Assembly (NCBI RefSeq): GCF_032854445.1
Contig: NC_088296.1
Location: 9,336,706-9,400,705, forward strand
DNA from: Liolophura sinensis
Taxonomy: Eukaryota > Mollusca > Polyplacophora > Chitonida > Chitonidae
Direction of reading: 5' to 3'
DNA length: 64,000 nucleotides
Below are positions 1,311 through 58,993 of the stretch, piece after piece. Both the position numbers and the translations under genes were made by a program. Each line of letters begins with the position of its first letter. Within the stretch, counting starts at the first letter, position 1. A model generated the notes under the pieces. That model saw only the letters and a list, made by a program, of their open reading frames with translations, searched no databases and had not been told where the DNA came from.

Positions 1311-1863
1311 GTCGGCTTTGACATTGAATATAGTTTCAACTGCAAACATTTCCGTTTTCATTTAACATTGAATCTTATTTCTAAGGTACAATTATGGAAA
1401 AGAAAACGTAAAAATATTGCAAATATCAGATGAAAGAGCGTGAAAACTGGTTTGCCATTATGGCCTCTTATCTTTCAGGAGAAAGGACTTTTAAAAATAT
1501 TTTTTGTTTGAAATAAGTATGTGATAATTGTCAAAAAAATTATTTCAATGTAAATTTGTTTTTGATGTCCCAAGACATGTATTTCTCCTAATTATGAAAA
1601 TACTTATGAATATATAAAAAAAAGACGAATATGATTAAGAATCAGGATGAACACATATTTCTAGCTGAACAAACCAAATTCCAGAAGAAATGTATTTAAT
1701 AATGATATGGTACATCTTTGTTTTTAACATCATTATACAGGGACAATATATACCAAACGGTGATGCTCAGTAGCCATCATGCATACAATTTTCAAATGTA
1801 TTTTTCTCATTATTTATGGTTATCCTATCAGACTCTACCATCTGAACTTCACGTAATGTTTAT

Positions 1864-1920
1864 CGCCACAATATGCCTGAAATACTGCCGATGTGGCGTT
1901 AAGCCATAATCATTCATTCA
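1864..1920 (+). mobile_element. 5'-truncated SINE tail with 16-bp target duplication
   Basis: This 57-base insert ends in the SINE-like string GTGGCGTTAAGCC followed by (ATTC)n. It is flanked by TTCACGTAATGTTTAT at 1848-1863 and 1921-1936. The right arm has a single copy of that target without the insert (58461-58476), which is a clean empty site. This shows a retroposition event in the left arm after the duplication. Confidence 0.8.
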
Positions 1921-1936
1921 TTCACGTAATGTTTAT

Positions 1937-2480
1937 GTTTCCTCCGCACTTAACAAATGTTTTGTTCGCTATCGTCCGTTCTAACTATATGTTTGCTCGA
2001 CGACTATCGGAAGCCACTGACTGAGCTTTCGTTTCATTTTGCCTTTTATACCCGTCTAATAAAAGCGCCTGAGAGTTTAGGTCAAATACTAGGCTGCCTA
2101 TTTTTGTGCTTCCGTGTGTTGTGACGCGTAACAATGTGAGCATTGCTCATCAGCCTTTTTCACGACGCTGTTTACTCTCGGCTTACAGGGAAAAAGTCAT
2201 TTTCATTTTTCTTGATTTTTTTTATCTTTTAACTACTGTAACCTAAAATGTGAGCGCTAATGCCGAAAGAAAGCTTTCCTGTTTATAAAAAACAGATTAC
2301 AGTGTGGAGATTAAAACTAGAGGAGCAACGTCAGCGTTGTTAAAACAGCGGAAAACTTTTAAAAAAGAAACGGAATAGACTTTTGTATTGTCGGACTCAC
2401 TTAACATGTCACCAGTGTATTTCCATGAATCGTGCAAATATTTCATGAAAAGGACAAGTACAACGCCCATATAAAATGGC
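1937..2480. other. Left-arm noncoding sequence
   Basis: No gene is visible. The stretch aligns with the right arm at about 57740-58440 (for example the TTGTATTGTCGGACTCAC segment at 2384-2401). Confidence 0.5.
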
Positions 2481-3550
2481 GGAGGCAAATTAAGATTGCC
2501 CAGACTATCTCAGCCCAATAGGGCGAGGGTCCAGATGCCGCCTAGGCCCCGGAAACTGGGTGCCGCAAGACCCCTGCATAAACGTTGAAAGCGATTTCTG
2601 GTGTCTAAAATTAGGAACTATATTAAGATATATTAAGTGCTGAATTCTTATTATTGACGCAAATATTGGTGCCCGGTGGTGCAGAAAAATGCAATTGTTG
2701 GGGTGAAATATGAGCGTCAAACTTTCACTAGGTAGCGAAAATTGAACCTCGTGTATTACATCTTTCGGAAATGTACATTACTGGGGTAGGCCTACCATAT
2801 TATTTCACCTAGTGCCAAATACATTTTCGAAATTCGGCTCTAAAGCGATCATACATTGGAAAATGATGCCGTTATCTGTATTTCAAGTCCCAGAGAATAT
2901 ACTTTGGCCGATAATTTACTCACTTTAACGATATTGAATCTGTGGGCTGTCAGCAGACTGAACAGATGGTGCTGTTTTCTGATTTGTAAAAGTACTCAGA
3001 CTGCAATTTGGTGAATTCATTGCTCGTTTCACTCAAACTTAATTATTTCGAAGATATAAATTCGAAATGTCGATTCTAAACTATTTCTCTCTAAAATAAC
3101 GTTCAGAAATTCGTCAGAATCCGTCTTCTCCGGCAGAGGCTGTCGAAGAAAACCTTTGATGCGGTGACAACGCGTCGTTGACATCTCAAATAACTTCACA
3201 GCATACTCGCACGACATGTGTGTCATCTACTCCCAGTCAACCCAGATCGTTTGATTTTCCGTTCCGTGAGTTTGAAAAAAAAAAGCTATTGTTATACGAA
3301 AGTTTTAAATGGAATGGTTTAATAAATGCACCTAGTTGCATTATCAAGAAAATACCGACTTAGCTTTCTGTTTTGCATGCCAAAACCTTTTGACCGTTTT
3401 CGTCAAGGTTATCCCCCAGCAGTAAGACTTAGCCCACTTTCATATCCTAACGTTTCAGCAAATGGAAAGGTACACAGGGCGTATTTAGAGAACACGAAGT
3501 TAGCAGGTGTCATCAACAAGCCGTTGAACGTATCATTTCCTTACCATCTG
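2480..3550. other. Unrecognised inserted sequence
   Basis: This belongs to the left-arm-specific block but matches nothing else in the window that I can see. The short open stretches lack recognisable domains. It could be more of the Gypsy or hAT element too decayed to read. Confidence 0.35.
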
Positions 3551-3639
3551 TCATGTTGCTTGACTGAAGAACAACAGAGATGATCGAGTTAGAGCACAAA
3601 AGGCCTGGAATCTGTATTGATGATCGCGATCGTTATCAT

Positions 3640-4536
3640 GGCACATGGCTTGATAGGACTTGCATCAGTGAGAAGTTCTGTTTGTTTTCTCGGATCGAAA
3701 TAGGCCAAAACTGTGTTACTCCGTAGTCGCTTTTTCAGTGTGAGAAAGGCTTGATTTTCATCCGTTCCAACTATGCAGTCGGCGCCTTTCAGCGTAAGCT
3801 TGCGGATTGGTTAGGTTATAGTTGCGTAATGTGGGATAAACCTTGAGCAGTAGCCTGTCATGCCAAGAAGACTTTCCACTTCAGACGGGTTGGTCAGCAG
3901 TGGTAGCTTTTGGATTGATTCTACTTTCTTCGGGTCTACTGATATACCGGCCTTACTGAACAAAGCCATAGAGTCTCGATTTGCTGAATCGACACTTTTC
4001 CTTGTTAAGGGTAATGTTTCTTTCTCTCAGGCGTTGAAGAGTTGCTCTTAAATTCTTGTCGTGGTCAGCATTGCCTGCACCATACACAAGTACATCGTCA
4101 CTCAAGTTCACAGTTCCGGGTATCCCGTCCAAAACTTGACAAATTGTGTTTTGAAACACTTCGGATGCGGATGAAACTCCAAAGTTAAGGCGTTCGAAGC
4201 GTCACAATCTTACATGAGTGGTGAAAATGTTACGCACCTGGACTCGGACGCTAACTCGAGCTGATGATAAGCTTTGCTTAGGTCAAACTTACTGTAGACA
4301 GTCGCTCCGTTCCGATCGTGGATAATATAATCCAGGGTAGGTGTGATGTGTCGTTCTCTTTTGACAGCCTGATTGGGTAGTCGCATGTCAACACAGACGT
4401 GTACTTGGGACGGATCTTTAGGCTTGGGAGCAACAACGATCGGTGATACCGTCGAACCGTCAACTTTCTTTATGATGTCGATGATTTCTGGTCTTGCCAA
4501 TTCCTCTTCTACCGTTTTACAAAGGTGGAACGGCAT
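3640..4536 (-). pseudogene. Gypsy reverse transcriptase / RNase H fragment
   Basis: On the minus strand, 4536-4210 reads through the RT fingers/palm (VCVDMRLPNQAV, then SKFDLSKAYHQLEL with the first catalytic Asp). The frame then shifts, and a stop lies near 4205 before the stretch that leads to NLSDDVLVYG (catalytic Asp pair) at 4159-3953. Continuing downstream, the RT-RNase H connection is recognisable and ends at a TDASP motif near 3665, where it runs straight into the 100-bp repeat. Frameshift, stop and 3' truncation make it non-functional. Confidence 0.85.
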
Positions 4537-4576
4537 TCTCCGATGTGGCCAGTGTGACCGGTTTTACTCTGATTGA

Positions 4577-4815
4577 TCTGATTAGTGGTTTACGCCGTAC
4601 TCAAGAATATTTCACTTATACGACGGCGGCCAGTATTATGGTGTGAGGAAACCCGGCAGAGCTCGGATGAAACCCACGACCATCCACAGGTTGCTGGAGG
4701 ACCTTCCCACTTACGGCCGGAGAGGACGCCAGCAACAGCTGGTCTTGAACTCACAGCGACCGCATGGGTGAGAGACCCCTGGGTCATTACGCTGTGCTAG
4801 CGCTCTAACCAATTG
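4577..4815 (-). mobile_element. SINE, AAATAAAT-tail tRNA family, nested in Gypsy
   Basis: This is a near full-length minus-strand copy of the family at 20721-20981. The 3' end (CGCCGTACTCAAGAATATTTC) is at 4590 and the tRNA-like head, degraded around the A box, is near 4810. It separates the gag and RT fragments, so it inserted into an already present Gypsy copy or at its deletion joint. Confidence 0.85.
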
Positions 4816-5074
4816 AATCCAGGTTTTCATCTGTCTGTTGTTCGGCCTGTCTAAATATATATCTCGCGTATTCATTGTTTTTTTTCGGTTGGAAATATCC
4901 AGATCGCTTGGTAACAACAGTGACATAATCACCTTTCTTGCCAGTGTCTGATAATGTGTCAAAAATGTCTTGCACTTCTTCGCATGAATAGTACAACATC
5001 AACGGACGTATTCGCAGTGTATAGTCGTCGTCGACAGCGAGCGCGATTAAAAACGCTTTAACCGCTGAAGGCAC
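4815..5074 (-). pseudogene. Gypsy gag-like fragment
   Basis: The minus-strand reading contains the Gag signature VQDIFDTLSDTG followed by YFQPKKNNEYARYIFRQAEQ, characteristic of Ty3/Gypsy Gag proteins of invertebrates. The open stretch is about 85 codons and is cut at its 3' end by a SINE (4577-4815). The remainder of gag, including any zinc knuckle, and the protease are absent. It is a remnant, not a host gene. Confidence 0.8.
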
Positions 5075-5449
5075 TTTGCCCGTCTGGCTGACACTGTATT
5101 GAGGTCAGATGAGACAGGGAAGTTAGAAAATGGGGGTACACTGGATGCCACAATTGTCAGTGAAACACAAGCACATGAAAGTTCAGTAAAGCGTTGGTTG
5201 TACAGTGTCGTTTTTGTTTAGATGGAAACAACTGTGATACAACGCACGTTACCACAGTAGTATCGACTCCTGTGTCGTTAATTAGGCCTGTAGGCTGTAC
5301 GTGTAACATTCTCGTCGCCAAGAGTCATGTTGCTTGACTGAAGAACAACAGAGATGATCGAGTTAGAGCACAAAAAGTCTGCAATCTGTATTAACGATCG
5401 TGATCGTTATCATGGCACATGGCTGAATGGATATCATTAAAAACCTGAC

Positions 5450-7250
5450 TTACACAAAACATGGAGGACGATATTACACCAGCAACTACTAGACATATTG
5501 GCAAATCCCTCAGTCAAGCGTATGCCGAAGAAAAGGCGGGAAAATAGACGTATTTTATATAAAATATTTGAAAATATACGTCACTTATGTCGACAACGTT
5601 TATCATTCCGTGGAAGCAGTGCTGCTGCAGATGAAGACGGTGGGAACTTCACGCAGCTTCTCATTTTGCGTGAAAGTGACGGCCCATCTCTTCTACAGTG
5701 GTTAAAAAAGAAATAAAAAAAATGTATCGCATGACATTTAGAATGAAATGATTCGTGTTCTTTCAAGAGAGGTCATAAATGAAATTCTGAAGTCTATAGA
5801 TCCATCGCTCAAGTTTTACTGTATAATGGTAGATGAGTTAGCTGACGTTTCCAATCATGAGCAGGTTAAACTAGTTTTTGGGTGGGTGAGAGGATTTTAT
5901 TGTGCACGAAGATTTCCTTGGGGCTTATGAAGTAGATGACATCAGAGCTGAAACTTTGGTAAAAGTAATTTTAGACGTTCTTTGTAGAATGAATGTATCA
6001 GTAAGAAAATGCAGAGGGCAATGTTATGATGGCGCGAGCAATATGAGGGGGAGAAAATCTGGCATGGCTGTCAGGTTACAGGAGTTGGAAACGAAAGCGT
6101 TGTGCACACACTGTTATGGCCACTCATTAAATCTTGCGTGCAGTGGCGCCATAAAGGAGGTAAAAGCTACTAAAGACGCTTTGAAAGTTACGTATGAAAT
6201 TTGTAAATTGATCCAATACTCACCCAGGCGTGAAGCATTGTTTGATAACCTGAAAACTAATACCCTATACACCTGGAGCTAGAGTACTTTGTCCTACGCG
6301 CTGGACTACGTGCAAATTCACTGGGGAGCATTGTTAATAAGTATGAGGTTTTCTTTCATTTGTGGGAAGAGGCACTGTAATGTGCGACAGACACTGAAGT
6401 GAAAGTTAGGGTTATTGGAGCGCAGTCACAAATGAGAAAATTTGATCTTTTCTGGGAAATATCACTCTCACACCTCATTCTTAAGCACTCTAATAATCTT
6501 AGTAAAACATTACCATCCAAATTTGTCAGCAGCAGAAGGTCAAAAAATTTGCTTCTTTGAGTGTTAAAACCCTTCAGAAAACAAAGCAAAACCGAGATTT
6601 TGACCTGTTTTACGAGAAGATTCTCCAAAACGTAAAATCACTTAACGTAGAAGATCCCATGTTACCGCAGAAAAACGCCATCACGATACGTTGGCGAAGG
6701 GGCTGGACACTTCCCTCAGAAGCCGGGTGAGGTCCACAGGCAACAGTAGCTTGATGTTGTTGATCGTATCATTAAAAGTAATTCAAGACTGGTTTGATCA
6801 GCCGAGTTTCCGACAATATAGAAATCCCCAGGGTTTACTTCTGAATGCCTGCAATAATAAAGAGTACACTAAGCAACTAGAAACCGTGGCAGCATTCTAC
6901 ACGTCAGACTTTGATAAAGAGAGACTAAGTACTCAGTTAGACACACTTTCTGTCAATTTGCCAAACAGGAAGACTCACCTGTTCATTTGAAGTCTCTAAT
7001 TTCCCTTTTTTCTGATATGTCACACGATGAGAGGACCTTTTTTCTCCGAGGTTGGCATGGTACTTCGTCTGATCCTTGTTATGCCAGCAACAAATGCAAA
7101 AAGCATAGTCTAGGTTAAATGAATTCTTCGTCTTGTATGCCCGTAAGGATTATACAGACAGAATTGATATCAAAACTGCAGCCAATCAGTTTGTTGAACT
7201 CTCAGACTATAGGCAGTCAATCTTAAGAAAGTATCGATAGCCTAAATCGA
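5450..7250 (+). pseudogene. Degenerate hAT-family transposase (DUF4371/ZMYM1-like)
   Basis: Successive plus-strand fragments in shifting frames follow the order of hAT transposases of the DUF4371/ZMYM1-like type: 5540-5716 (RHLCRQRLSFRG, then FTQLLILRESD), 5748-5890 (FYCIMVDELADVSNHEQ, with the expected IMVDE..D..N.EQ motif), 5902-6282 (VHEDFLGAYEV, CYDGASNMRG with the DGA.NM motif, CHCYGHSLNLA-like cysteine/histidine region), 6410-6690 (GAQSQMRKFDLFWEISL) and 6780-6970 (YRNPQGLLLNA, AAFYTSDFDKERL). Stops and frameshifts near 5716, 5900, 6282 and 6690 show it is dead. The C-terminal dimerisation domain is not clear and no terminal inverted repeats were found. Confidence 0.75.
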
Positions 7251-8285
7251 TCGGCAAGCCATTATACCAGTGTAATTATTTCAGCTGATTGTGTGACACT
7301 CAATGCAAACCTGTGTCATAAGAGAGCCAGTTTCTGACTGTCAAATACCAGCCCTTACAAGTTCGGTTCTCCGACTCGTTCTGTCTTTTCAATATACTAC
7401 ATTACTACATTATATAGCTGTTTTTTGGGGGGCAGCAGCCTGCACACCAAGCTTCAAAATATAGTAGGCCTACCACAACGTCATAGCCATAAATACGCGG
7501 TGGAAGTTATTGACTTGACACGCATTTGGAGTAAAGAAAAAAAGGCACAGTCTCTATCTGTAGTTGCTGAGTAATTTGTCTTTACTCTTGTTCTGCTTCT
7601 GTTTCTTTTTCAATTTTTTTTCGGTGGGTGGTTTGGGCGACAAACAACTGTATTGCTAAGGCCTTCTGTAAAATACGATTGCACAAAACCTGATACGGGC
7701 GTGAACCGCTGGGATGGTATTACCTTTAACAAGAGCCCGTTCGCCACCGGTGCCCTGATCCGGCTATAGCCAGTATTGTTGACCAAGAAAACACAGAGCA
7801 GTGTACTTTTTGCATTAAGTCATGCAAGTTCATATTCCCCGTCGTTGTATTGTGGCCCAGGTTTATTGTGTGTCCTTAAATTTGTGAGCGGAGCCTTTTA
7901 TCTTGTCTAGAGAACATTTTTCAGCTTTTAGAACGCAACCCACAAAACGTGTGTCATGTAATATATATTTAAGTCTGTATCGGCATATGAAGGGTTTACA
8001 GAAAAGGGTATACAGTATATGCATGCAGTCAAGTATGTTCGGCCTCTCTTGGGATGTTTATCGTGCCTAGCTGACGAAGACACGTCGATAATTGTTCACT
8101 CGATCCATTGTTTACTTTATTTGTTTTGTTTGTAAATGTTCATTGTTGACTTTTCAAATTCTTTGTCTTCTTTGTTACCATTTTGTTTTTCGTGTTCTAC
8201 TTGAATGTCTTCTGTATTTAGACCTTAACTTTCTCCCAAACCAATGACTTTCGTAAGGCAACTTAACGATAACTATATAATCCAA

Positions 8286-8528
8286 GACGTACAGCATAGA
8301 GAGTAAGACCGAAGCAGCGACGAAAGTGTGATGGCTGGCATATGGCCACACGTAACTGGTGAAATACGGCTACAGCATAGAGAGTAAGACCGGAGCAGCA
8401 ACGACAGTGTGATGGCTGGCAAATGGTCACACGTAACCGGTGAAATACGGCTACAGCATAGAGAGTAAGACCGGAGCAGCGACAATAGTGTGATGGCTAG
8501 CAAATGGTCACACGTAATCGGTGAAATA
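8286..8528. repeat. Three tandem copies of a ~90-bp dispersed repeat
   Basis: Units start with a TACAGCATAGAGAGTAAGACC-like string and end with ACACGTAACCGGTGAAATACGG. The right arm has the orthologous array at 56836-57050. Single related copies occur at about 46575-46690, 18595-18720 (opposite orientation, degraded) and 63150-63200, so the unit is part of a dispersed family and not only a local satellite. Confidence 0.75.
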
Positions 8529-9690
8529 CGGTCTTTTGTTGATTTACCTCAGTCAGGGCCTTATTCTAACCGTTCATATACATGCTTCCAAAGTATCTAA
8601 TTATACGACCTCCACCCCTCCCCTTCCCTGTCCCTCTAATGCCATGCCTTAAGTAGAATTAGGTAAACAAATACAGTGATGTTAATTACAATTTATTAGA
8701 CGTCTAGAATTAATCAGAATATCGAGTTTTCATCACATTTAACATACAATAACATTAGAATTATGCAAACGGGAACAAAGACGACAAAACAAGTAATTTA
8801 TAAAACATGAAATCTCTTCATACACATTACAGTTAAACTGCCATAAATAAACAGATTAAATATAAGCCATTGAAAAAAAAGAACGTAGAGGTTTGTCTAT
8901 TTGACTTAAGGCAACGTTTGCTTTATTACTTAGTTCTTAGTAAGAACACGCAAACTACAGTAGGGCGATAATACCCTCAGCCATGACTCAATACCTCAAA
9001 AAGCCTAACGTACAGTAGCTCAGATTGTTGCTATTGCGATTGGCTTAAAATATATTAGATTTCCTTCTATGACAGCCACTTCATGATAAATACAAGTATT
9101 CGACACACACTGGCAAGAGATAGAAAAGATAATTCTGCCTAACTTGCGGTGTGGATATCGGACGCTTATTGTACGTCTTACATTCAACGTGTTGTTAGAG
9201 GTTCACTAAATCAACAGGCCCTTTTACTGAAGCGACTAGTCACGCGATTTCTCGAATTATCATATCAGGAAAACTCTAAGCTGGCAATGGCCTCGTTAAC
9301 TCAGGACTAATTCTAAGGCGCATGCGCTTTCTGTTGAACAAGGCATCGAGTTTAAACCCAGTTTATATCTGCAAATTTGGATCCGCTGAGGATGTGGTAA
9401 AACGGCGAGGTCACATTACACAGAGACGTTAAACTTTGTTTCGTTATAACTTGAAATCTGCATATTGTTTGATTGATTGACTGCTGTAAGCTTACGCTGT
9501 ACCCGCGTTAACAAGTGTTGTTGCACACTGTAAATTGTGATATTTATTAAAATCATTTTATGTTTTCACTTATATTTAAGTCACTTAAATGATGCTTAAA
9601 AAGTGTACATGTAAATAAAACATATGTCAGGAATCTGGTGCCGGCCTTGGAGTAGCTACGCAACTGAATTTAGTCTTATCTTTTTATACT
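8529..9690. other. Left-arm noncoding sequence
   Basis: No gene is visible. It aligns collinearly with the right arm at about 56110-56830 (for example the ACTCAATACCTCAAAAAGCC stretch near 8987). Confidence 0.5.
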
Positions 9691-9838
9691 GTAAGTGGGA
9701 AGGTTTCAACAACCTGCGCATGGTCGTGAGTTTCCCCCGGGCTGTGCCCGGTTTCCTCCCACCATAATGCTGGCCGCCTTCATATAAGTGAAACATTCTT
9801 GAGTACAGCGTAAAACATCAATCAAATAAATAAATATC
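9690..9838 (+). mobile_element. SINE 3' half (AAATAAAT-tail family)
   Basis: This is a 5'-truncated plus-strand copy: GGATGGTCGTGGGTTTCC-type central part, CTGGCCGCC...ATATAAGTGAAA, then GTAAAACATCAATCAAATAAATAAAT. The head is missing. Confidence 0.85.
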
Positions 9839-9864
9839 TTTTTATATTACTTATTTATGTCTTT

Positions 9865-10107
9865 TTTGATTGATGTTTACGCCCTACTCAAGAATATTTC
9901 ACCTGTACGACAGCGGCCAGCATTTTTTGTTTAAGGAAACGGCGCAGAGCCCGAGGGAAACTGCAAGTTGCTCTCAGACGCTTCCATGTACGGACGGGGA
10001 GGAAGCCAACATGAGTTGGACTTGAACTCACAGCGACCACATTGGTGAGACGCTGTTGTGTTATATTGCGCTAGTGCGCTAACAACTGAGCCACGGAGGC
10101 TCCCCCC
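9865..10107 (-). mobile_element. SINE, AAATAAAT-tail family, nearly full length
   Basis: Minus strand. The tail side is at 9865 and the tRNA head with the GCCTCCGTGGCTCAG-like start is at 10107, directly followed by a C-rich run. The internal sequence is more diverged than in the copy at 20721. Confidence 0.85.
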
Positions 10108-10116
10108 CCCCCCTAC

Positions 10117-10195
10117 CCTTTCATATCACTTATACACCATGCATATTCTTGAGTTCGGCATAAAACACCAATTAAATAAATAAATAACAAATATA
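10117..10195 (+). mobile_element. SINE tail fragment
   Basis: Only the last ~70 bases of the family remain (TTCTTGAGTTCGGCATAAAAC then CCAATTAAATAAATAAAT). Confidence 0.7.
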
Positions 10196-10314
10196 CACCA
10201 TGGAGAAGCATTTCGGATCAATAATCGCCATAAGCCATCTCCAAATAAAAAAGCATAAAACAGTAATTTCAAAAAGAATATGTAAAAGTAACAAAAGAAA
10301 TAAAAGTAAATCAC

Positions 10315-10577
10315 ATTTATTTATTTATTTGGTGTTTAACGCCGTACTCAAAAATATTTCACTTATACGACGGGGACCAGCATTATGGTGGGAGGAAACC
10401 GGGCACAGCCGGGGTGAAACCCAAGACCATTCGCAGGTTGCTGATAGACCTTCCCACGTACGGCAGGAGAGGAAGCCAGCATGAGCTGGACTTGAACTCA
10501 CAGGGACCGCATTTGTGGGAGGTTCCCGGTTCATTACGCTGCGCGAGCGCGCTAACCAGCTGAGCCACGGAGGCCTC
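10315..10577 (-). mobile_element. SINE, AAATAAAT-tail family, full length
   Basis: Minus strand. The element runs from the TTTATTTATTTATTTGG tail at 10315 to the head GCCTCCGTGGCTCAGCTGG near 10575. On its sense strand the pol III A-box-like GTGGCTCAGCTGGTTAGCGC and a B-box-like GAGTTCAAGTCC are both readable. The short open frames in it are non-coding. Confidence 0.9.
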
Positions 10578-11105
10578 TGAAATCAAAATTTAAAAAAATT
10601 AAAACTAATCTTGTGGTCCGTAAATAATCTCCAAATGATTTACAAATCTAAGTATCTCAGTTGAGCTTTGATTACAACTATTCACACATGCATCATGACG
10701 ATGGAATGAAAACGAATGTTTACACCGACCCTGGCACACCTAGAATACCACTATCGTAGAGTGGTGTTGTGCTTAACGAAAATGATTTCCACATACAAAA
10801 TCTGGCTAAACTTTACACGATAATCCGGTATTCATTTTTTTTTAACATCGAAAGAATATGTACGTCTTCACCAGGGCGCAGATGAGATTTTATGACATGT
10901 CGGATTATATAACAGGGATTGTTTCTTCGATGAGAATCGTCACGGGTCTGAGGTGACCGAATGAGGACGCGCTTTAAACATGAATTGAATTAAGCCGAGC
11001 GGGAGTATGAACACAATTGATCTCACGCCCAGTTTTGTGAGGGGGATCTCGTTTTACCTGAGCCACGTTAAAAAAGCGCATTCAAAACTATCCAGACACA
11101 CACAG
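10578..11105. other. Left-arm noncoding sequence
   Basis: It aligns to about 55184-55640 in the right arm. I see no gene beyond the exon candidate that follows. Confidence 0.45.
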
Positions 11106-11208
11106 GTGGGATGCAATGATTATGTACATATAGAAATTACCTGGCAGGACACATCTTCTTTCTTGTCAAGCACAACACTAGCTATTGAAGTACAAGCTTT
11201 ATCAACGA
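11106..11208 (+). CDS. Candidate orphan exon, left arm
   Basis: The 103-base segment is preceded by ACACACACAG (acceptor-like) and followed by GTGAGTATT (strong donor). Read from its first base it is open for 34 codons and contains NDYVHIEITWQD and STTLAIEVQ, a pattern of alternating hydrophobic residues like an extracellular beta-sheet domain. The right arm has the same segment (55081-55183) with the same splice signals and only 1 difference in 103 bases (Ala to Val), whereas the next ~220 bases differ at about 12 positions. I found no partner exons, so the gene it might belong to is unknown. It may simply be conserved by chance. Confidence 0.25.
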
Positions 11209-11553
11209 GTGAGTATTGTTTATATCTTTGCCATATTAATACTAATCCACTTATTATGGTAGTTAATATTTGAATATTCACCCATGGTTATTCTTTCCGA
11301 CACGTTTAGATACAACTGAGTATATTGCAAGACGGGCTGCACATCTAACTTCCATCTTGAGCTAATTTAATTGATGACGTTTTGAAACTTATTATAGTCA
11401 ATAATATATACGGATTATGTAACCTTTTTGGTCAGGTTGTATTGTGAGACAATTCACTGGGCATCTTCTAAATGTCCATGTACAATATATATTGAATTTA
11501 TCCCAACTATCATTTTAAAACATGATTTACAAATAAATAGAAGTAAATTCTTA
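11209..11553. other. Left-arm noncoding sequence
   Basis: It aligns closely with 54740-55080 of the right arm. No gene is seen. Confidence 0.45.
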
Positions 11554-11918
11554 GAGTGAGTGAGCAAGTGAGTGCTTGGGGTTTAACGTCGTACTTAACA
11601 GTTTTTCAGTCATATTACAACGGAGGAATCCTTTGAGTGCATATAATGTACCTCCTTGTTGCAGGCCAGATTTGCCCCGCACTTTTGTCTAGTGCTGCTT
11701 CACTGAGACGCCTTACCGAATGCAAGCAAGGCGCCCTGCCCACGTCATTATACTGATACGGGTCAACCAGTTGTTGCACTATCCCTTTCATGCTGAATGC
11801 TAAGCGTGGAAGTTACAACTTCCTCTTTTAAAGTCTTAGGTGTGACTCAATCCAGGATTGATCCTAGATCTACTGCTCCCGAAGCGGACGCTCTACCAAC
11901 TGTGCGTTCGGGGCCGGT
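11554..11918 (-). mobile_element. SINE, CACT-tail tRNA-derived family
   Basis: Read on the minus strand it begins with a tRNA-like head (an AGTTGGTAGAGCG A-box-like block and a CTTCGGGAG anticodon-loop-like block), then a central region found in all copies (GTCTCAGTGAAGCAGCACTA), and ends with ACGACGTTAAACCCCAAGCA and a short CACT tail. Sister copies are at 18237-18590, 33868-33947 (fragment) and 41653-41732 (fragment). It is absent from the right arm. Confidence 0.85.
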
Positions 11919-11939
11919 CACTGAACACCAGGGCGATCT

Positions 11940-12910
11940 ACAAGTTGCTAGCAGCCTTTTTGTTATTCGAATAACGACTATCGTGCTAACAAGGTATTCA
12001 TTATTCGAATCTTAAATAGTGTGCTAGCAGTATTGATATGAAGCCAGCACTTTATTCGTTATCTGCATCTAAAATAGAATCTTTACCCGCATATGGTACA
12101 AGCACGTTTTTCTTTAATGGGATCTAACATAGGACGTTTCCCGAATATGGTGCTAACCAGTTTTTCATTTTTCAGGTCTTTAATAACGTGCTGGCTCAAA
12201 TATGGTGCCAGCACGTTTTCGTTATTTGGGTCTTCAGTAACATGTGGGCTCGAACATGGTGCTAGCTCGTTACTCGTTCTTTCGTGTCTCAGATATGGTG
12301 CTCCCATGTTCTTCATTATTCAGCTCTTCACTGAGGTACAGGGTGGAATATGGTTGTGGCGCGTTTTTATTTATTCGGATCTGAAAATAAAGTTTACTCA
12401 CGTGTGGTGCTAGCACGCTTTTGCGCTTTTCGTTATTCACCTCTAATAACACTCTGGCACGAATATGCTACTTGCACGTTATTCGAATAACGAAAAACGA
12501 ATATGGTGCTAACTTCTACAATGACAGCAAGTTGTTCGAGATTCGAATAACGTGCAAGCATTATATCCGAGCTAGCACTCTGGTAAAGAACTGAGAAACA
12601 TAGTGGCACAAAATTTGACTAGACCTCTTATTTCACATCCGAATAACGCGCTAGCACCATATTTGAAACCGTCTGTGACTGGAGGTATGAGTTAAATTGT
12701 GAACACGGTACTGAATTCTCTCCACTCAGCAGGTTATTTGAGATCTCACTGTGGAATTAGGCGATTCGAATAATTATTAACAATAATTAAAGGAAACACG
12801 AATAAGGTGCTAATATCTATGTTGCCAGCACGTTATCCCGGATTGCAATAACGAATATCGCGCCAGCAATGTTATTCGTTATTCGAATAACCGCGAACGA
12901 ATCTGATGCT
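11940..12910. repeat. Degenerate tandem array rich in GCTAGCAC / TTATTCG words
   Basis: Imperfect units of roughly 55-65 bases combine TATGGTGCTAGCACG, CGTTATTCGAATAACG (a perfect small palindrome variant) and AACGTGCTGGC in both orientations. The right arm has a shorter, more eroded version at 54030-54560. The short open frames in it are repeat artefacts. Confidence 0.7.
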
Positions 12911-17480: not shown

Positions 17481-17496
17481 TTTCCCACAGGACACC

Positions 17497-17548
17497 ATGT
17501 GCCTTAAGACATTTGTCTTAGTGATTGCAATATTGCATACATCTTCCG
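17497..17548 (+). CDS. Gene A exon 1 (signal peptide)
   Basis: It encodes [17 protein letters not shown] plus one base of a Gly codon and is followed by GTAAGT. The ATG is preceded by an excellent acceptor, TTTTCCCACAG at 17480-17490, conserved in gene B, so an untranslated exon probably lies upstream. The hydrophobic core and small residues at the end fit a cleavable signal. Confidence 0.8.
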
Positions 17549-33866: not shown

Positions 33867-33867
33867 G

Positions 33868-35617: not shown

Positions 35618-35812
35618 ATGACTCAGGAGCCTCTCACCAATGCGGTCGCTGTGAGTTCAGGTCCAGCTCATGCTGGCTTCCTCTCCAGCCGTAAGTGGGA
35701 AGGTCTTGCAGCAACCTGTGGATGGTCGTGGGTTTTCCCCGGGGCTGGCCGCCGTCGTATAAGTGAAATATTCTCTAGTACGAAGACACGAATCAAATAA
35801 ATAAATAAATAA
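35618..35812 (+). mobile_element. SINE, AAATAAAT-tail family, head-truncated with internal deletion
   Basis: It begins at TGACTCAGGAGCCTCTCACC, lacks the A box, has a short deletion in the GCCCGG...CATAATG region, and ends with (AAATAAAT)n at 35812. Confidence 0.85.
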
Positions 35813-37569: not shown

Positions 37570-38280
37570 ACTTTACGTACGTCATACGGAAAAGGTTAGC
37601 CATTAAAAGTTTCAACATTGTCAACAGTGTGCGTCAGATTAAATGGTATATAATGGGATCGACAATCAATACCTCACCACAATTTGCTGATTAGGATTTT
37701 GGCAACATGATGTCGCCCTGCCACAAGAACACACAGTAGGCCTATATGTGCAAACACCTAAAGACTTGTCGTCATAACTAACAAAACCGTTAGCCATGAC
37801 GCAAAAACCCAAACATACATACATACACACACGCGCAAATACCTTACCAAATTTGCACAAAAATGTTTTGCGTGAATCGAGAGTGGCAGGACAAGAATAA
37901 CATGTGTACTGACTGCGTTTTAAAAGTGAAAGGGGACATAGCCCAAGGCTCTCCACTCATGTAATATCGCTGCCACCACTAGACAAGCTTGACCTTTGTG
38001 TCCTTTACGACATACCTGGCGCTGTTTAGGCTTAATCGGACCTATAAGCCTATCAAGATGTCGTCAACAGCACTGTTTCAGGTGACACGATAGAATCATC
38101 TTGTGCTCACATGGAATAAGGATAATGCATATATTTGTCAAGTTTTAATATACACAGTTTTCTTGCTGTTGTTGCAGGGAGGAAAAAGAACGCGCGAAAA
38201 CATTCCTTGGTGATGAAAACGAAGGGAAATAACCAATGGCTCACACCAAGTTCAACACCCATGAGTTATCTCCTTCTCCA

Positions 38281-38464
38281 TTACGCCAGTTTTGAATCTT
38301 GGAAACTGTTGTTGTAGAAAATGTAGGGGAAGTGTTCCGGGTACGATATTGTGGAATTTTTCCATGTTTTATCTTCTCTAAAATTCGCCGTGTCCCAGGT
38401 CTGAGGTCGAGGAATCCTAAAACTGTACTTATCGTCGTTAGAATCATCGTCCATAAGTCTGTGC
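38281..38464 (-). CDS. Gene B last exon (cytoplasmic tail)
   Basis: 184 bases ending [32 protein letters not shown] and a Tyr-rich [13 protein letters not shown]. Preceding intron is only ~310 bases, against 4.85 kb in gene A. Confidence 0.9.
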
Positions 38465-46933: not shown

Positions 46934-47191
46934 GGTGAACTGTGGGAAAATAGATACAGAAAAAAGTAAAAAAAGTGCCTTATAGCATTAATGTGCAAAC
47001 ATATATAGTAAACAAAAGACGAAAGGAAATTCATCACCAGATAATCAGAAAAGAAGTTATACACAGCATAGACACCTCAGTTATAGACTAAAGTTGTGGA
47101 ATATCTCAAATGTTTAAGCACCTGATTCTGTAATGGACGCTGATCATTTGACAAGTGTTTATATGAAGCTGACGTTCTGTATACACACGGA

Positions 47192-47300
47192 GAAGACACC
47201 AGTATGGGCTGGACTTGAACTCCTAGCTACCGCAATAGTAGGAGGCTTCTCGGTCATTGCGCAGCGCTAACGTCCTAACCACCCCAGCCGCGGACCCGTA
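47192..47300 (-). mobile_element. SINE head fragment, ortholog of 17128-17235
   Basis: Minus-strand head of the AAATAAAT family; same site as in the left arm, so inserted before the duplication. Confidence 0.75.
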
Positions 47301-47725
47301 ACTAGTGTGCCCTAACGGTTGAAAGCAATAACAAAAAAATGTAAGTTTCTCGCTTTACATGTAGGCTCTACGCTGAAACTCTCGCTGGTTCGGGTAACAA
47401 AAGCTTCGCTCTCTCTGCAGATGGCTTACATTCGTTCAATAAGAACGCGTTTTCAAAGCACGTTTTGGTTTCAACTCACAGTGAGAAGGTGTGTTAGATA
47501 TGTTTGCAATACCTTTCTTCACCTAACAAAAATAACGGCTGATATATATGTAAAATATCCATGAATTCACGGATAGACGTCAGTAATGTGTGTATAAATT
47601 AATACATGCATACCTACAAGTAAAAGCTTGTGTTTCCAATTAGGAGTCTATGTAGTACTGCCGGATATAAACTGACCAACATAAAAATAAAGACTGATTT
47701 AAATCATAAATAAAAAAGGACTTAC

Positions 47726-47767
47726 CTATGGTATAGAGGTGTGGTTATACAGTCAGTTTGCCCCTGT
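47726..47767 (-). other. Possible 5' untranslated exon of gene B
   Basis: The minus strand shows TTTTTCTTTCACAG (acceptor) before ACAGGGGCAAACTGACTG and CCATAG|GTAAGTCC (donor) after it, giving a 42-base exon. This would splice to the conserved acceptor just before the start codon. The left arm has the aligned sequence but with CACAAACATG in place of the acceptor, so gene A would differ in its leader. Confidence 0.35.
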
Positions 47768-47879
47768 CTGTGAAAGAAAAACAAGAACCAATATAATTAA
47801 AAACAAATACAGTTTTGATATAATGTAACGCAAGCCAGAATGTACTAAATGCATAACAAGTGTTCAAATACCTCTGGGT

Positions 47880-49800
47880 CTTCAGAATTAATTTTAAAAT
47901 TTGCATCGGAATGTCATTACAACAAAGCCGTCTGTACACCAATGGATATCACTTCCTTCAAATCCGTTTGTTCTGTTCCCTCCTTTTAGAATATATGGGA
48001 ACATATTTCAACTCGGGCTTTGTAAGCAAAGCCGTGTGTCAACGCAAAATGTCCAACTGTCAGAACGACAATGAAACCTGAGTCTCCTTAGTACTCCTGA
48101 GTTCCACACTCCTGTCAGGTAAGTTTAGGACTGCGTGTGGTAAGATTGTGATGGTGTGTGAGCTGGGTGCTTAATGACTGGGTTAAACGTTAGACTGCTG
48201 GACATTTACTAGTGAAGGAATACATACAAATATGCCCTCATGTATGGCGTTTGTAAACTTGATGAACGACATGAAACTCAAGTCCTTAATTTATAATTTA
48301 ACCATTTTAAATATTTTGGCTGTTGATTTTGGCTGTTGATCGAAAGTGTACATGTAGTAAGTACCTAAACTGATATCAAGTCATATTATATATTTAAAAT
48401 TTTAACCAAACTCTTCATCCAATGCAGTTGTCCAAAGTTAAAGTATAATATTAACAGTTTTATGTTCATATATAACGTATTGTTACATAATTATTTCAAG
48501 CTAAGTACAAAATTGAAGATTTAGCTTAAATCTGGTATTCAGTCATAGACAATCTTGACCCATCGGTCCCTCAATCCTAAATAGTCAGTATGGAACTGGT
48601 AACATGGAATCAGTATTTATTCGTTCTTGAAGAAAAAAACATTGATGGGACTTGAACTGATTAGCTATTTTCATCGTTGTTGTTTGAAAAAATAAGAGCA
48701 TGTCTTAAAAGTGAGCTTCATGCTGAAATAGTAGCGTCTGAATAAAGATCCACACCTCAGTCGATACCGTTGGGTAAGCCCACTGCATTGTCTCAAATTT
48801 CAGTCTGAAATTCGTGACTAGAAGATATAAAACATTTTTCTCTAATGTCAAAGAGACCTAAGGATTACGCCATTTAGCAGATTTGAATTCATGTCAGCAG
48901 GGCGGAGGAACAGATGCTGTCTGTTTGTGTGCATTGATTTGAGCGCACACGTGTACATGCACGTGGAAAAAAATAAGCATCAGGTATTTGGGATTGCACA
49001 AGAATCTACTGAATCAGTCCAAATCTGTTAAACATGTGTTTCCCTCTTAAACTGTTTTGTGGCTGTGTTCAGCGGCTATACATCTGTACTGTTCTTGAAC
49101 ACGGATATAAGTTTCCCTTTTTAGATAATTATACTTTATTTCAGTAAGACTTTTTTTCTCGACTTGTTGCAGACACATTGGCCTTGGTGTGTTGCTGACA
49201 GCGTGCAGCGTGCATGCTATAGGTTTAAATGACAGAAACAACTTTTAAATAATGTTGTCTGAAACAGGTTTTCCATTCCTTGATACCATTAAGATAGCCC
49301 GATATTGTGACTTTTACTACGAGCCATTACAAAATTACAAAACCTTAGTTACAGCACAAAACTTTCTTCGCAAAAGAGAAATATATTCAAACAAAAGATT
49401 AGCACTTTCATTTTCTAAGGAGATCTAAGAATCTGATTTAAACTGTTTTCCTGTGCTACATGTAACACTTGTGACAAAATAATTTCCACTAAAGCAGGCG
49501 CCTGAAGTACGCATAACGATAACGGTTCAGGTCTAAATTGTGATTGCAGTTCACTGTGTTAGGAAAACACACCACATGTACGCTATGTATGGATTCAATC
49601 GGTCAAGACCTTTGAAGTCACCTTGAAGTACGCCCATATTTGTAAATAACCAGATTTATTTATGACCTTGTGTTACAACTGGCAAAAACCTGTATCGGTT
49701 CATGTCTAAAGCTTTTGATCGTGGGTTAAAATCAAAGGTCGCGTTAAAACGCCCTGATTATCAATATTTGTTATGTAGGGATCAGTCAGAATTTAGGCCT
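47880..49800. other. Right-arm noncoding sequence
   Basis: It aligns with about 14550-15700 of the left arm (for example the CCATCGGTCCCTCAATCCTAA stretch near 48563). No gene recognised. Confidence 0.45.
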
Positions 49801-49808
49801 TGTCTAGT

Positions 49809-52470
<2,662 letters not shown>

Positions 52471-52471
52471 T

Positions 52472-52678
52472 GTAATAACCCACATGATATGGGACATAAA
52501 CTCTGGCATGTCTCCACACGGATGTCACGATTGAGGGTTTGTAATAACCCACATGATATGGGACATAAACTCTGGCATGTCTCCACACGGATGTCACGAT
52601 TGAGGGTTTGTAATAACCCACATGATATGGGACATAAACTCTGGCATGTCTCCACACGGATGTCACGATTGAGGGTTT
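52472..52678. repeat. Three identical 69-bp tandem units
   Basis: The unit begins GTAATAACCCACATGATATG and ends GTCACGATTGAGGGTTT. The three copies are identical to my reading, so the expansion is recent. 69 bases is 23 codons, which creates open frames in several phases; none has gene support. Confidence 0.95.
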
Positions 52679-52739
52679 GTGACACCACATGTGAAATACA
52701 CGTGGGTCTCAGAATGTGAAATGAACTTGAGGGTGTGGT

Positions 52740-54030
52740 AGATGAAACGGCAGCAATGTACACCCAATGATACACTCCCTATTGGTCGATTACGCAATAT
52801 CCTACTGGTCTTACGCAATATCTTTTTTGTTCTTTGTATAATTGTTACTGGTTACTTAATACGATCCTTTAACAGAACGCTTATATTACAAAGAAGCTTG
52901 CTCTCGTTAAAAAAAAACAGGTATTAGTTTTATGTTAACATATATCACCATCTGTTCAGTCTTCATTTACACTTGTCTAAAACCCAAACTGAGCAAAACC
53001 GACTGAGTTTCGTTATTCAAAGAACCGGTTTACTAAAGATCCGTGATTTCACTTCTGATGTTTCCACTTTTTAACAAGCAGTTTTATCATTATCGGTGTG
53101 CTTAATTGGATGATGTTACTTCAAGTATAAAAACATTTGGAAAAAGATAGTTGTAAACTAAGGTTGTAACCTAACCAGCGAGAATACGCAACAGGTGGGT
53201 AAAAATAGGTCCTCCGCTATCACGAGGCCTTTTCTTGTAACGATACCGATCGCTTACGACACTCCTCACTTTACTGCACACTCCCCACTAGACCACACGC
53301 CTATCGAGAGTCCGTAATTCCCAAGCACAAAGACAGAAAATACATATATGTTCACAGGATATATAGGTCAAACAAACAAACTGATTGATTAATGATACGT
53401 GACTTTCTTTGGGTGTGGCTTAAAGTACGTCTACCGATGGCAATTTGATAATGATTGACGTGATGGCCAGTTACACAGTCTGAATCATGGGTTTATACTG
53501 TGTATCTGGCACGTGCGTGTACAACGAAAATGCCCATAGTCTTTAAAGCACGGATGGACATAATACAGCAAGAATAAACTCTTATACTTAAATATGATAA
53601 GGTAAATACATGTAATACAGTTAATCAAACGTCATCTCTTAAAAAGCGAGGGTAGAAGTTTGTAGCCAACAGCTTCTGAAACTTATCTTTTTGCTGTTGT
53701 TTGTTTATCTGTTGCCTGTTTTATTTTATTAATGAACTCATTTATGTATTAATGTATTTATTTGTGTCACAGTTAAACTGTGTGGTTTAAAACAAGTAGG
53801 AATTAGACTACCTTGATGTTAAAGCTTGCCAACGAATGCTGGTTTCGAACCTGCGATCGAAATGATACATTTTCATTCCATGGGGGGGGGGGGGGGGGGG
53901 AGTCGTCTACTATGTAATAGACACTTTGTAGTCATGAGCTCCTTCAAGTATATTTATACTTATGTCACGGTATAAAATTAACAGAAATGTAAAACTACTA
54001 TTGTATATGGTGTAAAGTTTTGTTTTTAGA
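52740..54030. other. Right-arm noncoding sequence
   Basis: The 53160-53480 part aligns with 13700-14010. A G-run lies at 53882-53900. No gene recognised. Confidence 0.4.
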
Positions 54031-54560
54031 TATAACCTGGCACCATATTCGAGCCAGTACGTTACTAAAGCCCTGAATAACAAAAAAAACCGATAGCACC
54101 ATATTCGGGAGAAGTCCTTTTTAAGATCAAATTATATTCGGTTAAAGATTTTGTTTTGATGCGGATAACGAATAATGTGCCGGCGTCCTTTCTGGACCAC
54201 CATGTTATTTAAAACCCAAATATCGACAAATCTGCTGGCCCCATAATCGAGCAAACTTGTTACTGAAGAGTTGAATAACGAAAATTTAGCCAGCACCATA
54301 TTTGTGTTAATTCGAGGTGACACATTATTGACCGACCAAATAACGAAAAACGTAGAATAAGCTTCTTATCTCATCTTCAAATAACCTGATAGCAATATAC
54401 TGTGAACAGGACACTACCGGAGATGTGAATGCAAGTGGCCAGTGATGCCAAACCCGATGCTAAATTCTGTAGGATCACCATGTTATTTAAGATCTAAATA
54501 TTGAATATCGTACTAGCACGATATCGTTATTCGAATTACAAAAAAAAACGAGATTGGTGC
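54030..54560. repeat. Right-arm version of the TTATTCG/GGCACC array
   Basis: Eroded units (GCACCATATTCG, CGTTATTCGAATTAC) correspond to 11940-12910. Confidence 0.6.
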
Positions 54561-55080
54561 TAAATCCTGCCAGCACACTACCCAATCTATGGTAGTTTAA
54601 AATTCCTGGATTTGCCTCAGCTACACTCTTGTTCATTGTAAATGTATGAGAAGAAGGAAAGGAACATGCTGAAATTGACTGCAGTTCCCTCCCTTGGACA
54701 GACATCAATACGTTGTGCTGGATGGCGTTCATCCAAGAATTTGACTTCTATTAATTTCCAAGTCATGTTTTAATATGATAATTGCAATAAATTCAATATA
54801 TATTGTACATGAACATTTAGAAGATACCCAGTGAATTGTCTCAGAATACAACCTGACCAAAAAGGTTACGTAATCCTTATATATTATTGACTATAATATG
54901 TTTCAAAACGTCATCAATTAAATCAGTTCAAGAAGGAAGTTAGATGGGCAGCCCGTCTTGCAATATACTCAGTTGTATCTAAAACGAGCCGGAAAGAATA
55001 ACCATGGGTGAATATTCAAATATTAACAACCATAATAAGTGGATTAGTATTAATATGGCAAATATATAAACAATACTCAC

Positions 55081-55183
55081 TCGTTGATAAAACTTGTACT
55101 TCAATAGCTAGTGTTGTGCTTGACAAGAAAGAAGATGTGTCCTGCCAGGTAATTTCTATATGTACATAATCATTGCATCCCAC
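55081..55183 (-). CDS. Candidate orphan exon, right arm
   Basis: Reverse-strand copy of 11106-11208 with the same acceptor (ACACACAG) and donor (GTGAGT) and the same open frame; one substitution (Ala to Val). See the left copy for interpretation. Confidence 0.25.
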
Positions 55184-55839
55184 CTGTGTGTGTAGTGTCT
55201 GGATAATTTTGAATGTGCTTTTATTTGACTGGGACGTGGCTCAGGTAATATGAGGCCCCCCGTCAGAAAACAGGGCGTGAGATCAATTGTGTTCATTCTC
55301 TCGCTCGGCTTATTTCAATACAAGTATAGAGCGCGTCATCATTCGTTGACCTCACATCCGTGACGATTCTCATCGAAGAAACGATCTCTGCTATATAATC
55401 CGACATGTCATAAAATCTCATCTACGGCCTGGTGAAGACGTATATATTCTTTCGATCTTCAAAAGACAAGAATATCGGATCATCCTGTATTGTTGGCCAG
55501 ATTTTGTATGTGGGAATTTTTTTCGTTAAGCACAACACCACTGTGCGATAGTGGTATGCTAGGTGTGCCAGGGTCGGGTGTAAACATTCGTTTTTCCATC
55601 ATCGTGGATGCTTGTATGGCAAGTTTTCATTTTCAATTTGATTTTATGCCTAGGATTCGGCTGTATTCCCTGAATGGATCGATCCTACACATCCGATATA
55701 CTACCGCCCCTTCTCGTGACAACGTTACTTTTCATTCCATCCCGGGTGAAAGAAATTGTGACATCATTTCGTGACAGAAAGATTGAACATTTGCAACGAA
55801 TGTGTAGGACATCCGGTTGACCGATATGAACTTTACTCA

Positions 55840-56060
55840 GCCCGATAGCGCAGCGTAATGAAACAAGAGCCTCTCATCAATGCGGTCGCTGTGAGTTCAG
55901 GTCCAGCTCATACTGGCTTCCTCTCCGGCCGTACGTGGGAAGATCTTGCAGCAACCTGCGGATGGTCTTGGGTTTCCTCCCACCATAATGCAGGCCGCTG
56001 TCGTATAAGTGAAATATTTTACGGCGTAAAACACCAATCAAATAAAGACATAAATAAGTG
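55840..56060 (+). mobile_element. SINE, AAATAAAT-tail family, head-truncated
   Basis: It begins near CGATAGCGCAGCGTAATG and runs to GTAAAACACCAATCAAATAA. A small deletion removes the GCCCGG part. Absent from the aligned left-arm site, which has its own SINEs at 9690-10577. Confidence 0.85.
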
Positions 56061-56835
56061 GTACAAAAAGATAAGACTTAATCCAGTTGCATAGCGACTC
56101 CAAGGTAAGTACCAGATTCCTGAGATATGTTTTATTTACATGTACACCTTCTAAGTATTATTTAAGTGAATTAAATATAAGTGAAAACATAAAATGGTTT
56201 TAATAAATATCACAATAGGCAGAATTATTTTTTCTATCTCTTGATACTGTTCGTCGAATACATGTATTTATCATGAGGCTCTGTGGCTGTGTTTAAATAG
56301 AAGGGAATCTAATATTTTTAAGCCAATCACAATAGCAACAATTTGAGCTCCTGTACGTTAGGCTTTTTGAGGTATTGAGTCATGGCTGAGGGTATTATCG
56401 CCCTCCTGTAGTTTGCGCGTTGTTAGTAAGAACTGAGTAATAAAACAAACGTTGTCTTCAGTCAAACAGACAAACCTCTCCGTTCTTTTTTTTCAATGGC
56501 TTATATTTAGTCTGTTTATTTATGGCAGTTCAACTGTAATGTGTATGAAGACATTCCATGTTTTATAAACTACTTTCTCTGTCTTCTCTGTTCCCGTTTT
56601 CATAATTCTAATGTTATTGTATGTTAAATGTGACGACAAGACGATATTCTGATTAATTCTAAACGTCTAAAAAAATTGTAATTAAGATCACTGTATTTGT
56701 TTATCTAATTCTACTTAAGCCATGACAGTATAGGGACAGGGAAGGGGAGGGTGAGGGTCGTATAATTAGCTACTTTGGAAGCATGTATATGAACAGTTAG
56801 AATAAGGCCCTGACTGAGGTAAATTAACAAAAGGC

Positions 56836-57050
56836 CGTATTTCACCGGTTACGTGTGACCATTTGCTAGCCATCACACTGTTGTCGCTGTTCCGGTCTTA
56901 CTCTCTATGCTGTAGCCGTATTTCACCGGTTACGTGTGACCATTTGCTAGCCAACACACTGTCGTCGCTGCTCCGGTCTTACTCTCTATGCTGTACGATT
57001 ATCACACGGTCGTCGCTGCTCCAGTCTTACTCTCTATGCTGTAAGTCTTG
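56836..57050. repeat. Right-arm copy of the ~90-bp tandem repeat
   Basis: Two full units and one truncated one (ATTATCACACGGTCGTCGCTGC) in the opposite orientation to 8286-8528. Confidence 0.75.
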
Positions 57051-58993
57051 GAGTATATAGGTATGGTTAAGTTGCCTCACAAAAGTTATTGGTTTGGGAG
57101 AAAGCCAAGGTCTAAATACAGAAGATAGACCAGGAAGAACCAAACGGTAACAAAGAAGACAAAGGAACAGCCAACAATGAACATTTACAATGAAAACAGA
57201 TAAAATGAACAATGGATCGAGTGAGCAATTATCGACATGTCTTCATCAGCCAGGAACGATAAACACCATAAGAGGGGTAGAAAACATTTGACGAGCTGCA
57301 TGCATGTACCGTAAGCCCTTTTCTGTATACGCTTTGTATGCCGTTACAAGCTTGTTAAGCATATGTTATATGACAAACGTTTTTGTGGGTTGCGTTCTAA
57401 AAGCTGAAAAATGTTCTCTATACAAGATAAAAGGCTCCGCTCACAAATGTGAGGACACACAATAAACCTGGGCCACGACGGGGAATATGAACTTTTATGA
57501 CTTAATGCATAAAGTACACTGCCCTGTGTTTTCTTGGTCAACAATGCTGACTATTGCCGGACCAGGGCACCGGTGGGGAAAGGACACTTGTTAAAGGTAA
57601 TACCATCCCAGCGGTTCACGCCCGTATCAGGTTTTGTGCAGTCGTATTTTACAGAAGGCCATAGTAATATAGTTGTTTGTTTATTATGGTACATAGTGTA
57701 AATTCTGACGTTTGTACTTTTTGCCTGTGTATGATATATCAACCTTTACTATTAAACATTTACACGATTTATGGAAATACACCGGTGACATGTTAAGTGA
57801 GTCCGACAATACAAAAGTCTCTTTCCGTTTTTTTTTTAAAGTTTATTGTATGTTAAATGTGATGACTTTTCAGTACTTTCGAATAATTTTAAACCATTTT
57901 TGTCTAATAAATAGTTTGTGCGTTCTTTTAATTTAAGTCCGTTCAAGCCATTGTACTAGGGGGCGGGTTAGTTTGCTACTATTTAAGCATTTACATAAAC
58001 AGTTAAAACGAAACTCTAACCGACATAAAAATGACTGGAGGCCGTGATTCTATTTTTTTTATTTTTAATCTGTTTTTTATAAACAGGAAAGCTTCTATCG
58101 GAATTGTTGGTTAATTGTAGGTTACAAACAATTACAAGATCAAAAAATCAAGAAACAGGAAAATTTTGGTTTTAAACGGTTTCATCAAGAAAAACGTATA
58201 AAAAATCCTGTAAGCCGTGCCTAAATAGCCTCGTGAAAAAGGCAGATGAGCAATGCTCACATTATTACGCATCACAAGACACAGAAACACAAAAATAGGT
58301 AGCCTAGCATGTGACCTAAATTCTCAGGTGCTTTTATTAGACGGGTATAAAAGGCAAAATGAAACGAAAGCTTAGTCAGTGGCTTCTGATAGTCGTGGAG
58401 CAAACATATAGTTAAAACAGACCATAGCGAACAAAACATTGGTTCAATCTGGAGAAAACCTAAACATTACGTGAAGTTCAGATTGTAGAGTTTGACAGAA
58501 TAACTATAAATAATTAGAAAAAGACATTTGAACAGATTTTTTGCTTGATGGCTATAGAGGATCACCTTTTGGTATATATTGTCCCTGTATAGTGACGTTA
58601 TAAACAAGGATGTACCATATCGTTAATAAATACATTTCTTCTGGAATTTGACTTGTTCAGCTAGAAATATGTGTTCATCCTGATTCTTAATCATATTTGT
58701 ATTTTTAATATATTCATAAATACTATCATAAACAAAACATTTACATTGAAAGGAGTTTTTAAACAATTATCACATACTTATTTAAAACAAAAAATATTCC
58801 TTTCAAAGAAAGTCCTTTTTCCTGAAAGGTAAAAAAACCATGATGGCAAATAAGTTTTCACGCTCGTTCATCTTATCTTCGCATTATTTTTATGTTTTCT
58901 TCTCCATTAATGCACCTTAGAAGGAAGATTCAATGTTAAATGAAAAATACAATGTTTGCAGTTGAAACTATACTCAATGCCAAAGCCGACACA
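57051..58993. other. Outer end of right arm, noncoding
   Basis: Collinear with the left arm down to 1313. It includes the empty target site at 58461-58476. No gene recognised. Confidence 0.5.

Follow-up and report, generated by a model that had tools for sequence, protein, structure and literature searches.

A diverged inverted duplication with a convergent pair of predicted EB-module surface-protein genes in the chiton Liolophura sinensis

A stretch of 64,000 nucleotides of the Liolophura sinensis assembly (contig NC_088296.1; hereafter the window) contains two collinear arms on opposite strands, each with one gene model for a predicted single-pass membrane protein. In all probability this arrangement goes back to an old inverted segmental duplication, in the animal's genome, of a gene together with its upstream region, the two copies having diverged since. 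The signs of later conversion between them are weak. The predicted head and tail of the protein recur in both arms, and the most visible difference between the two models lies in the stalk.

Arms, spacer and private sequence

The overall layout is made of three parts:

1310..29570, + strand: left arm of the inverted duplication, 28.3 kb, with collinear minus-strand blocks
29571..37568, no strand: spacer between the arms, 8.0 kb, with tandem arrays at 30340-31143 and 32271-32797 and a partial EB paralogue
37569..58991, - strand: right arm of the inverted duplication, 21.4 kb, with collinear minus-strand blocks

The original prediction was of an imperfect inverted duplication with arms of 28 and 21 kb around a spacer of about 8 kb, and its sizes were correct. 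The duplication itself is borne out by a blastn comparison of the left half of the window with the right half, which pairs the arms on opposite strands in 25 collinear blocks, the first at 1310-1862 / 58991-58461 and the last at 28591-29570 / 38476-37569 (27 blocks make up the best chain, but those at 375-411 and 30246-30340 are repeat matches beyond the arms). When both halves were randomised (order-3 Markov), none of 20 runs gave a match, at the threshold that yields 61 in the real sequence. Matches on the same strand amount to 17 rows of at most 282 columns, mostly SINE-like copies, and no collinear series was seen among them. What is found is therefore what defines an inverted segmental duplication: two collinear arms on opposite strands, noncoding DNA included.

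Within the arms the best chain aligns 10,793 sites at 87.7% identity. The aligned share is about 50% in the shorter arm (21.4 kb) and 38% in the longer (28.3 kb), both being lower bounds: the chain omits some arm sequence where overlapping matches were dropped (19604-20155 and 20980-21537 among them), and a single match was kept of several in the exon 3 repeat and in the 27-base array. One block of the chain, 10320-10553 / 56046-55839, consists of a SINE-like repeat and may not be a true counterpart; both the 10,793 sites and the noncoding distance given below include it. Arms and spacer form an unbroken sequence in the assembly, the sole run of N (200 bases, 60504-60703) lying beyond them, and the GC content of the window stays between 30 and 44% in 2-kb steps.

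Private sequence is abundant, and we name here the larger stretches among many. On the left these are 2454-7639 (5.2 kb), which includes a SINE-like copy, and 24043-28590 (4.5 kb), which contains a PIF/Harbinger element; on the right, 51336-49502 (1.8 kb) and 41562-39065, the latter comprising a mucin-like exon and a SINE-like piece. The left stretch 18131-19603 spans 1.5 kb vs 0.6 on the right. Mobile elements account for part of this private sequence:

24391..27692, - strand: PIF/Harbinger DNA transposon, confined to the last intron of the left gene, with terminal inverted repeats and TAA on both sides
20713..20975, + strand: SINE-like repeat of the left arm, without a right-arm copy at that place
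17126..17236, + strand: SINE-like piece common to both arms, with its right counterpart at 47294-47188

PIF/Harbinger elements are recognized by a DDE_Tnp_4 transposase, terminal inverted repeats and a three-base target-site duplication, and they have a second, Myb-like protein. The element described here combines a transposase frame at 25683-26417 (Pfam DDE_Tnp_4, E 1.5e-29) with inverted ends (42-base arms, 98% complementary) and a flanking TAA at either side. Two other frames of the element, 27103-27555 and 26436-26951, gave no Pfam match with an E value of 10 or less, and the transposase reached 17.9 bits in NCBIfam, vs a cut-off of 140. As for the SINE-like repeats, the piece at 17126-17236 occupies an equivalent place in both arms, so it probably predates the duplication. 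The copies at 4572-4811 and 20713-20975 are unpaired at their positions, and a right copy, 55839-56054, may pair with a left copy between 9851 and 10585. We take these repeats, together with a short repeat near 33870, to resemble molluscan elements.

Outside the two gene models little else was seen. In the outer arms (1310-16300) no coding frame stood out, among the 30 listed of 131 stop-free frame pairs in a Ka/Ks scan that has low power, as it ranks the known exons 2 and 7 26th and 28th. No Rfam family at its gathering score and no tRNA was found. The long open reading frames at 62141-62740 and 39590-41251 (+) lie largely within tandem repeats and were discarded, and so were the 11 rows of a PDB sequence search (best E 0.3), all of them ribosomal protein L17/uL22, which we judged to be chance matches.

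Two predicted membrane proteins with different stalks

The left gene model runs on the + strand from 17497 to 28786 and encodes 296 residues; the right one runs on the - strand from 46933 to 38281 and encodes 973. Both were built from a translated comparison of arm against arm and from the sequence itself, with exon borders picked as AG and GT so as to keep the frame. Every picked border passed this check, and the introns of the coding part of both models can take GT-AG borders that preserve the frame. The tail-to-tail pair of membrane-protein genes that had been proposed thus takes the form of two open, spliceable models on opposite strands, converging on the spacer. Their exons, and the related piece located between them, are as follows:

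17497..17548, + strand: left exon 1 (coding part), signal peptide; open frame with a GT donor, also conserved on the right
17966..18109, + strand: left exon 2, first EB-like module; gene model
19617..19931, + strand: left exon 3, EB modules 2 and 3; acceptor and donor a few bases off relative to the right
22207..22257, + strand: left exon 4A, short stalk with N-glycosylation sequons; AG/GT borders
23346..23396, + strand: left exon 4B, second short-stalk exon copy; 23264-23408 matches 42527-42391 (blastn)
23659..23752, + strand: left exon 6, transmembrane segment; hydropathy 2.87 over 19 residues
28603..28786, + strand: left exon 7, cytoplasmic tail and stop; gene model
46882..46933, - strand: right exon 1 (coding part), signal peptide; gene model
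45391..45534, - strand: right exon 2, first EB-like module; gene model
44473..44787, - strand: right exon 3, EB modules 2 and 3; gene model
42403..42453, - strand: right exon 4A, short stalk; gene model
39483..41564, - strand: right exon 5, 694-residue mucin-like stalk, right arm only; Thr/Ser-rich (53%)
38775..38868, - strand: right exon 6, transmembrane segment; hydropathy 2.79 over 19 residues
38281..38464, - strand: right exon 7, cytoplasmic tail and stop; gene model
31254..31573, - strand: two EB-like pieces in the spacer, from an incomplete third EB paralogue; over 53 residues 32% identical to right exon 3, E 5e-9

From the N-terminus on, both models predict a signal peptide followed by cysteine-rich EB modules and a stalk; a membrane segment comes next, and the last part is a tail of roughly 60 residues. 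Besides the hydrophobic N-terminus, each has a single strong hydrophobic segment. The ectodomains, entered as exon joins typed by hand, match the Pfam EB family (PF01683) with E values of 3e-15 and 7e-16 (56.3 and 58.5 bits vs a cut-off of 24.3), and at a loose threshold the profile finds three stretches in both genes. An AG is present six bases upstream of the start codon in both genes, and this suggests a noncoding first exon further upstream of each. Judging from sequence, we would expect both predicted genes to be expressed, and their products to act as adhesion proteins or receptors on the cell surface, similar in head and tail, which would be carried at differing distances from the membrane.

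It is in the stalk that the two models part. The left one is short and lacks the 694-residue Thr/Ser-rich exon of the right model, a long stalk which is likely to be O-glycosylated and whose exon is largely made of 39-base and 153-base repeats. The match with the left arm ends two bases into that exon, and on the left it is exon 4B that occupies the place of the mucin-like exon, the two left stalk exons carrying five N-glycosylation sequons. The mucin-like exon may have been gained on the right or lost on the left.

The spacer contributes a more distant relative, with an E value of 0.0094 against Pfam EB (16.4 bits, under the cut-off of 24.3). When the spacer was probed with the signal, membrane and tail exons of both genes, the best of 8 rows had an E value of 1.0, so no such exon of a third gene was found there. 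The presence of this piece suggests that the locus may hold a small cluster of EB genes.

Divergence of the copies and competing explanations

That the arms are not recent copies, as had been anticipated, is upheld by a noncoding distance of 0.13 and a Ks of 0.21, and by the many private stretches. The noncoding distance was taken over 10,199 sites and differs along the arms, being larger within the gene (0.17) than in the outer arm (0.12). Over 269 shared codons Ka is 0.097 and Ka/Ks 0.47, a ratio that pools both lineages, so that the constraint on each of them separately cannot be read from it. Exon by exon the ratio ranges from 0.27 to 0.59, except in exon 6, where it is 1.47: there Ka (0.063) exceeds Ks (0.043) on one synonymous change. 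Exon 2 has a Ks of 0.60, with 11.5 synonymous differences over 27.8 sites, where the remaining shared exons together have 20 over 146; the excess has a Fisher p of 0.0008 or 0.003 according to rounding, a value that is optimistic since the exon was chosen post hoc.

In the scenario that we favour, the unit would have been a complete single-pass surface-protein gene, together with about 16 kb upstream of it and less than 1 kb past the stop codon. It would have been copied once (we infer a single event), inverted and next to the original, with part of the more distant EB relative also present in the vicinity. Afterwards point changes, insertions of transposons and SINEs, growth of tandem repeats and deletions would have set the copies apart.

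A very improbable alternative is that the assembler joined two haplotypes of one locus in opposite orientation. Some marine invertebrates are highly heterozygous, the arms carry equivalent genes, and large presence/absence differences separate them, all of which would fit such a misjoin; against it speak the noncoding distance over the aligned sites, the fact that at least half of each arm is unmatched in the chain, the inverted orientation with 8 kb of other sequence in between, the differing exon content, and the lack of any N run from one arm to the other. Two further readings are compatible with an old inverted duplication and concern what became of the copies. The left copy may be decaying, because its exon 3, compared with that of the right, has gained one base near its start and lost one at its end, and keeps its frame solely if the acceptor used lies four bases further along and the donor a few (as read from the phases). 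Yet it is doubtful that this copy is a pseudogene and that the right gene alone works: displaced splice sites at both ends of exon 3, the missing long stalk exon and a 3.3-kb transposon inside the last intron would go with decay, but once the splice shifts are granted the left frame is open across all 296 codons, and the pooled Ka/Ks of 0.47 counts against it too.

The other reading, which we regard as unlikely, holds that parts of the inverted pair are still kept alike by gene conversion from arm to arm. It would explain why identity is patchier than chance, the standard deviation of 200-site windows being 0.040, above every one of 2000 shuffles (mean 0.023, highest 0.031), although shuffling disregards uneven constraint along the arms. 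It would also fit the clustering of synonymous differences in exon 2, and two identical tracts that are rare in shuffles: 28917-29033, with 117 sites, 130 bp beyond the left stop codon (reached in 1 of 2000 shuffles), and 11089-11196, with 108 aligned sites and a five-base gap on the left side (reached in 4 of 2000). Patchy conversion and conserved elements fit these tracts equally well, however; the overall identity of aligned sites is modest, and the longer arm is mostly unmatched. A palindrome held near-identical by conversion was rejected, as the arms, at 87.7% and with the aligned shares given above, are not nearly identical over their length. For this locus, the original prediction that such a structure can drive gene conversion, inversion or copy-number change is no more than a possibility. 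It is quite improbable, finally, that the pair is a matched set of short-stalk and long-stalk receptors, alike in head, tail and membrane segment, with conversion between the arms preserving the likeness of exon 3, of the membrane segment and of parts of the flanks, exon 2 being free to diverge or derived from another paralogue.

Relation to known systems and significance

Inverted gene duplications are already known in invertebrates, and the old duplication described here adds another example. The long inverted repeats reported in Caenorhabditis hold convergent or divergent paralogous gene pairs (PMC1803023), and the convergent paralogous genes inside two inverted arms around a spacer are common to both cases. 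The nematode examples given there are mostly more than 95% identical, with arms that reach 2207 bp at most and spacers measuring 126 and 414 bp, unlike the insertion-rich arms of 21-28 kb seen here, 88% identical where aligned, and their 8-kb spacer. In some species the likeness of the arms has decayed, down to 83.4% in one C. remanei pair, the counterpart of which in C. briggsae is below 61% (PMC1803023). The palindromic collinear gene blocks described in Folsomia candida offer a second case of inverted duplication in an invertebrate, with a synonymous rate of 0.2 for one of them, vs a Ks of 0.21 here; the two palindromes described there have eight and five gene copies per arm, and here there is one clear gene per arm (PMC5490193).

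The GRC and PTC2 regions of Biomphalaria are clusters of single-pass membrane proteins, some mutually related, with large structural differences (PMC7494358). The two predicted single-pass membrane genes here, related but structurally different, may be comparable; the PTC2 proteins are reportedly without known domains, whereas EB modules are present here (PMC7494358). In the one sequence examined there are two models with a single strong hydrophobic segment besides the N-terminus, and a third locus, in the spacer, where no membrane segment was found. The EB module (PF01683), the profile cut-off of which is well exceeded in both genes, is joined here to a stalk, a membrane segment and a tail.

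As it stands, this is an ordinary old segmental duplication. It also shows, in good resolution, what happens to a gene copied in inverted orientation, the predicted head and tail having been kept and the stalk altered by gain or loss of an exon. If its genes are expressed and polymorphic, the locus would be a candidate for an invertebrate cluster of surface receptors.

Mobile and repeated sequences within and between the arms

The transposon lodged in the last intron of the left gene carries a second frame, 27103-27555 (-), which may be the N-terminal portion of the PIF/Harbinger transposase; a Pfam search with this frame matched no family. A short interspersed repeat occurs at four places, with two copies in the left arm and one each in the right arm and the spacer. 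It may resemble a molluscan repeat; a literature search on it found no support for that likeness. At right exon 3, a tandem repeat duplicates the exon's 3' end, together with the donor site, into the next intron.

24391-27692: PIF/Harbinger transposon, TAA flanking both ends
33868-33944: short interspersed repeat, spacer
41655-41721: same repeat, right arm
11555-11639 and 18234-18313: same repeat, left arm
43831-44538: 207-bp tandem repeat, 3.4 copies, right arm

Scaffold gap and the arrays past it

60504-60703: scaffold gap, 200 N
60717-62075 and 62128-62594: long tandem arrays past the gap

The arrays hold long open reading frames in repeat frames.

Uneven divergence between the arms

Two noncoding tracts, 28917-29033 (117 aligned sites) and 11089-11196 (108), are identical between the arms, and each exceeds the length expected by chance. 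Synonymous differences are more abundant in exon 2 (17966-18109 left, 45534-45391 right) than in the other shared exons, an excess that looks as if this exon had had a history separate from theirs.
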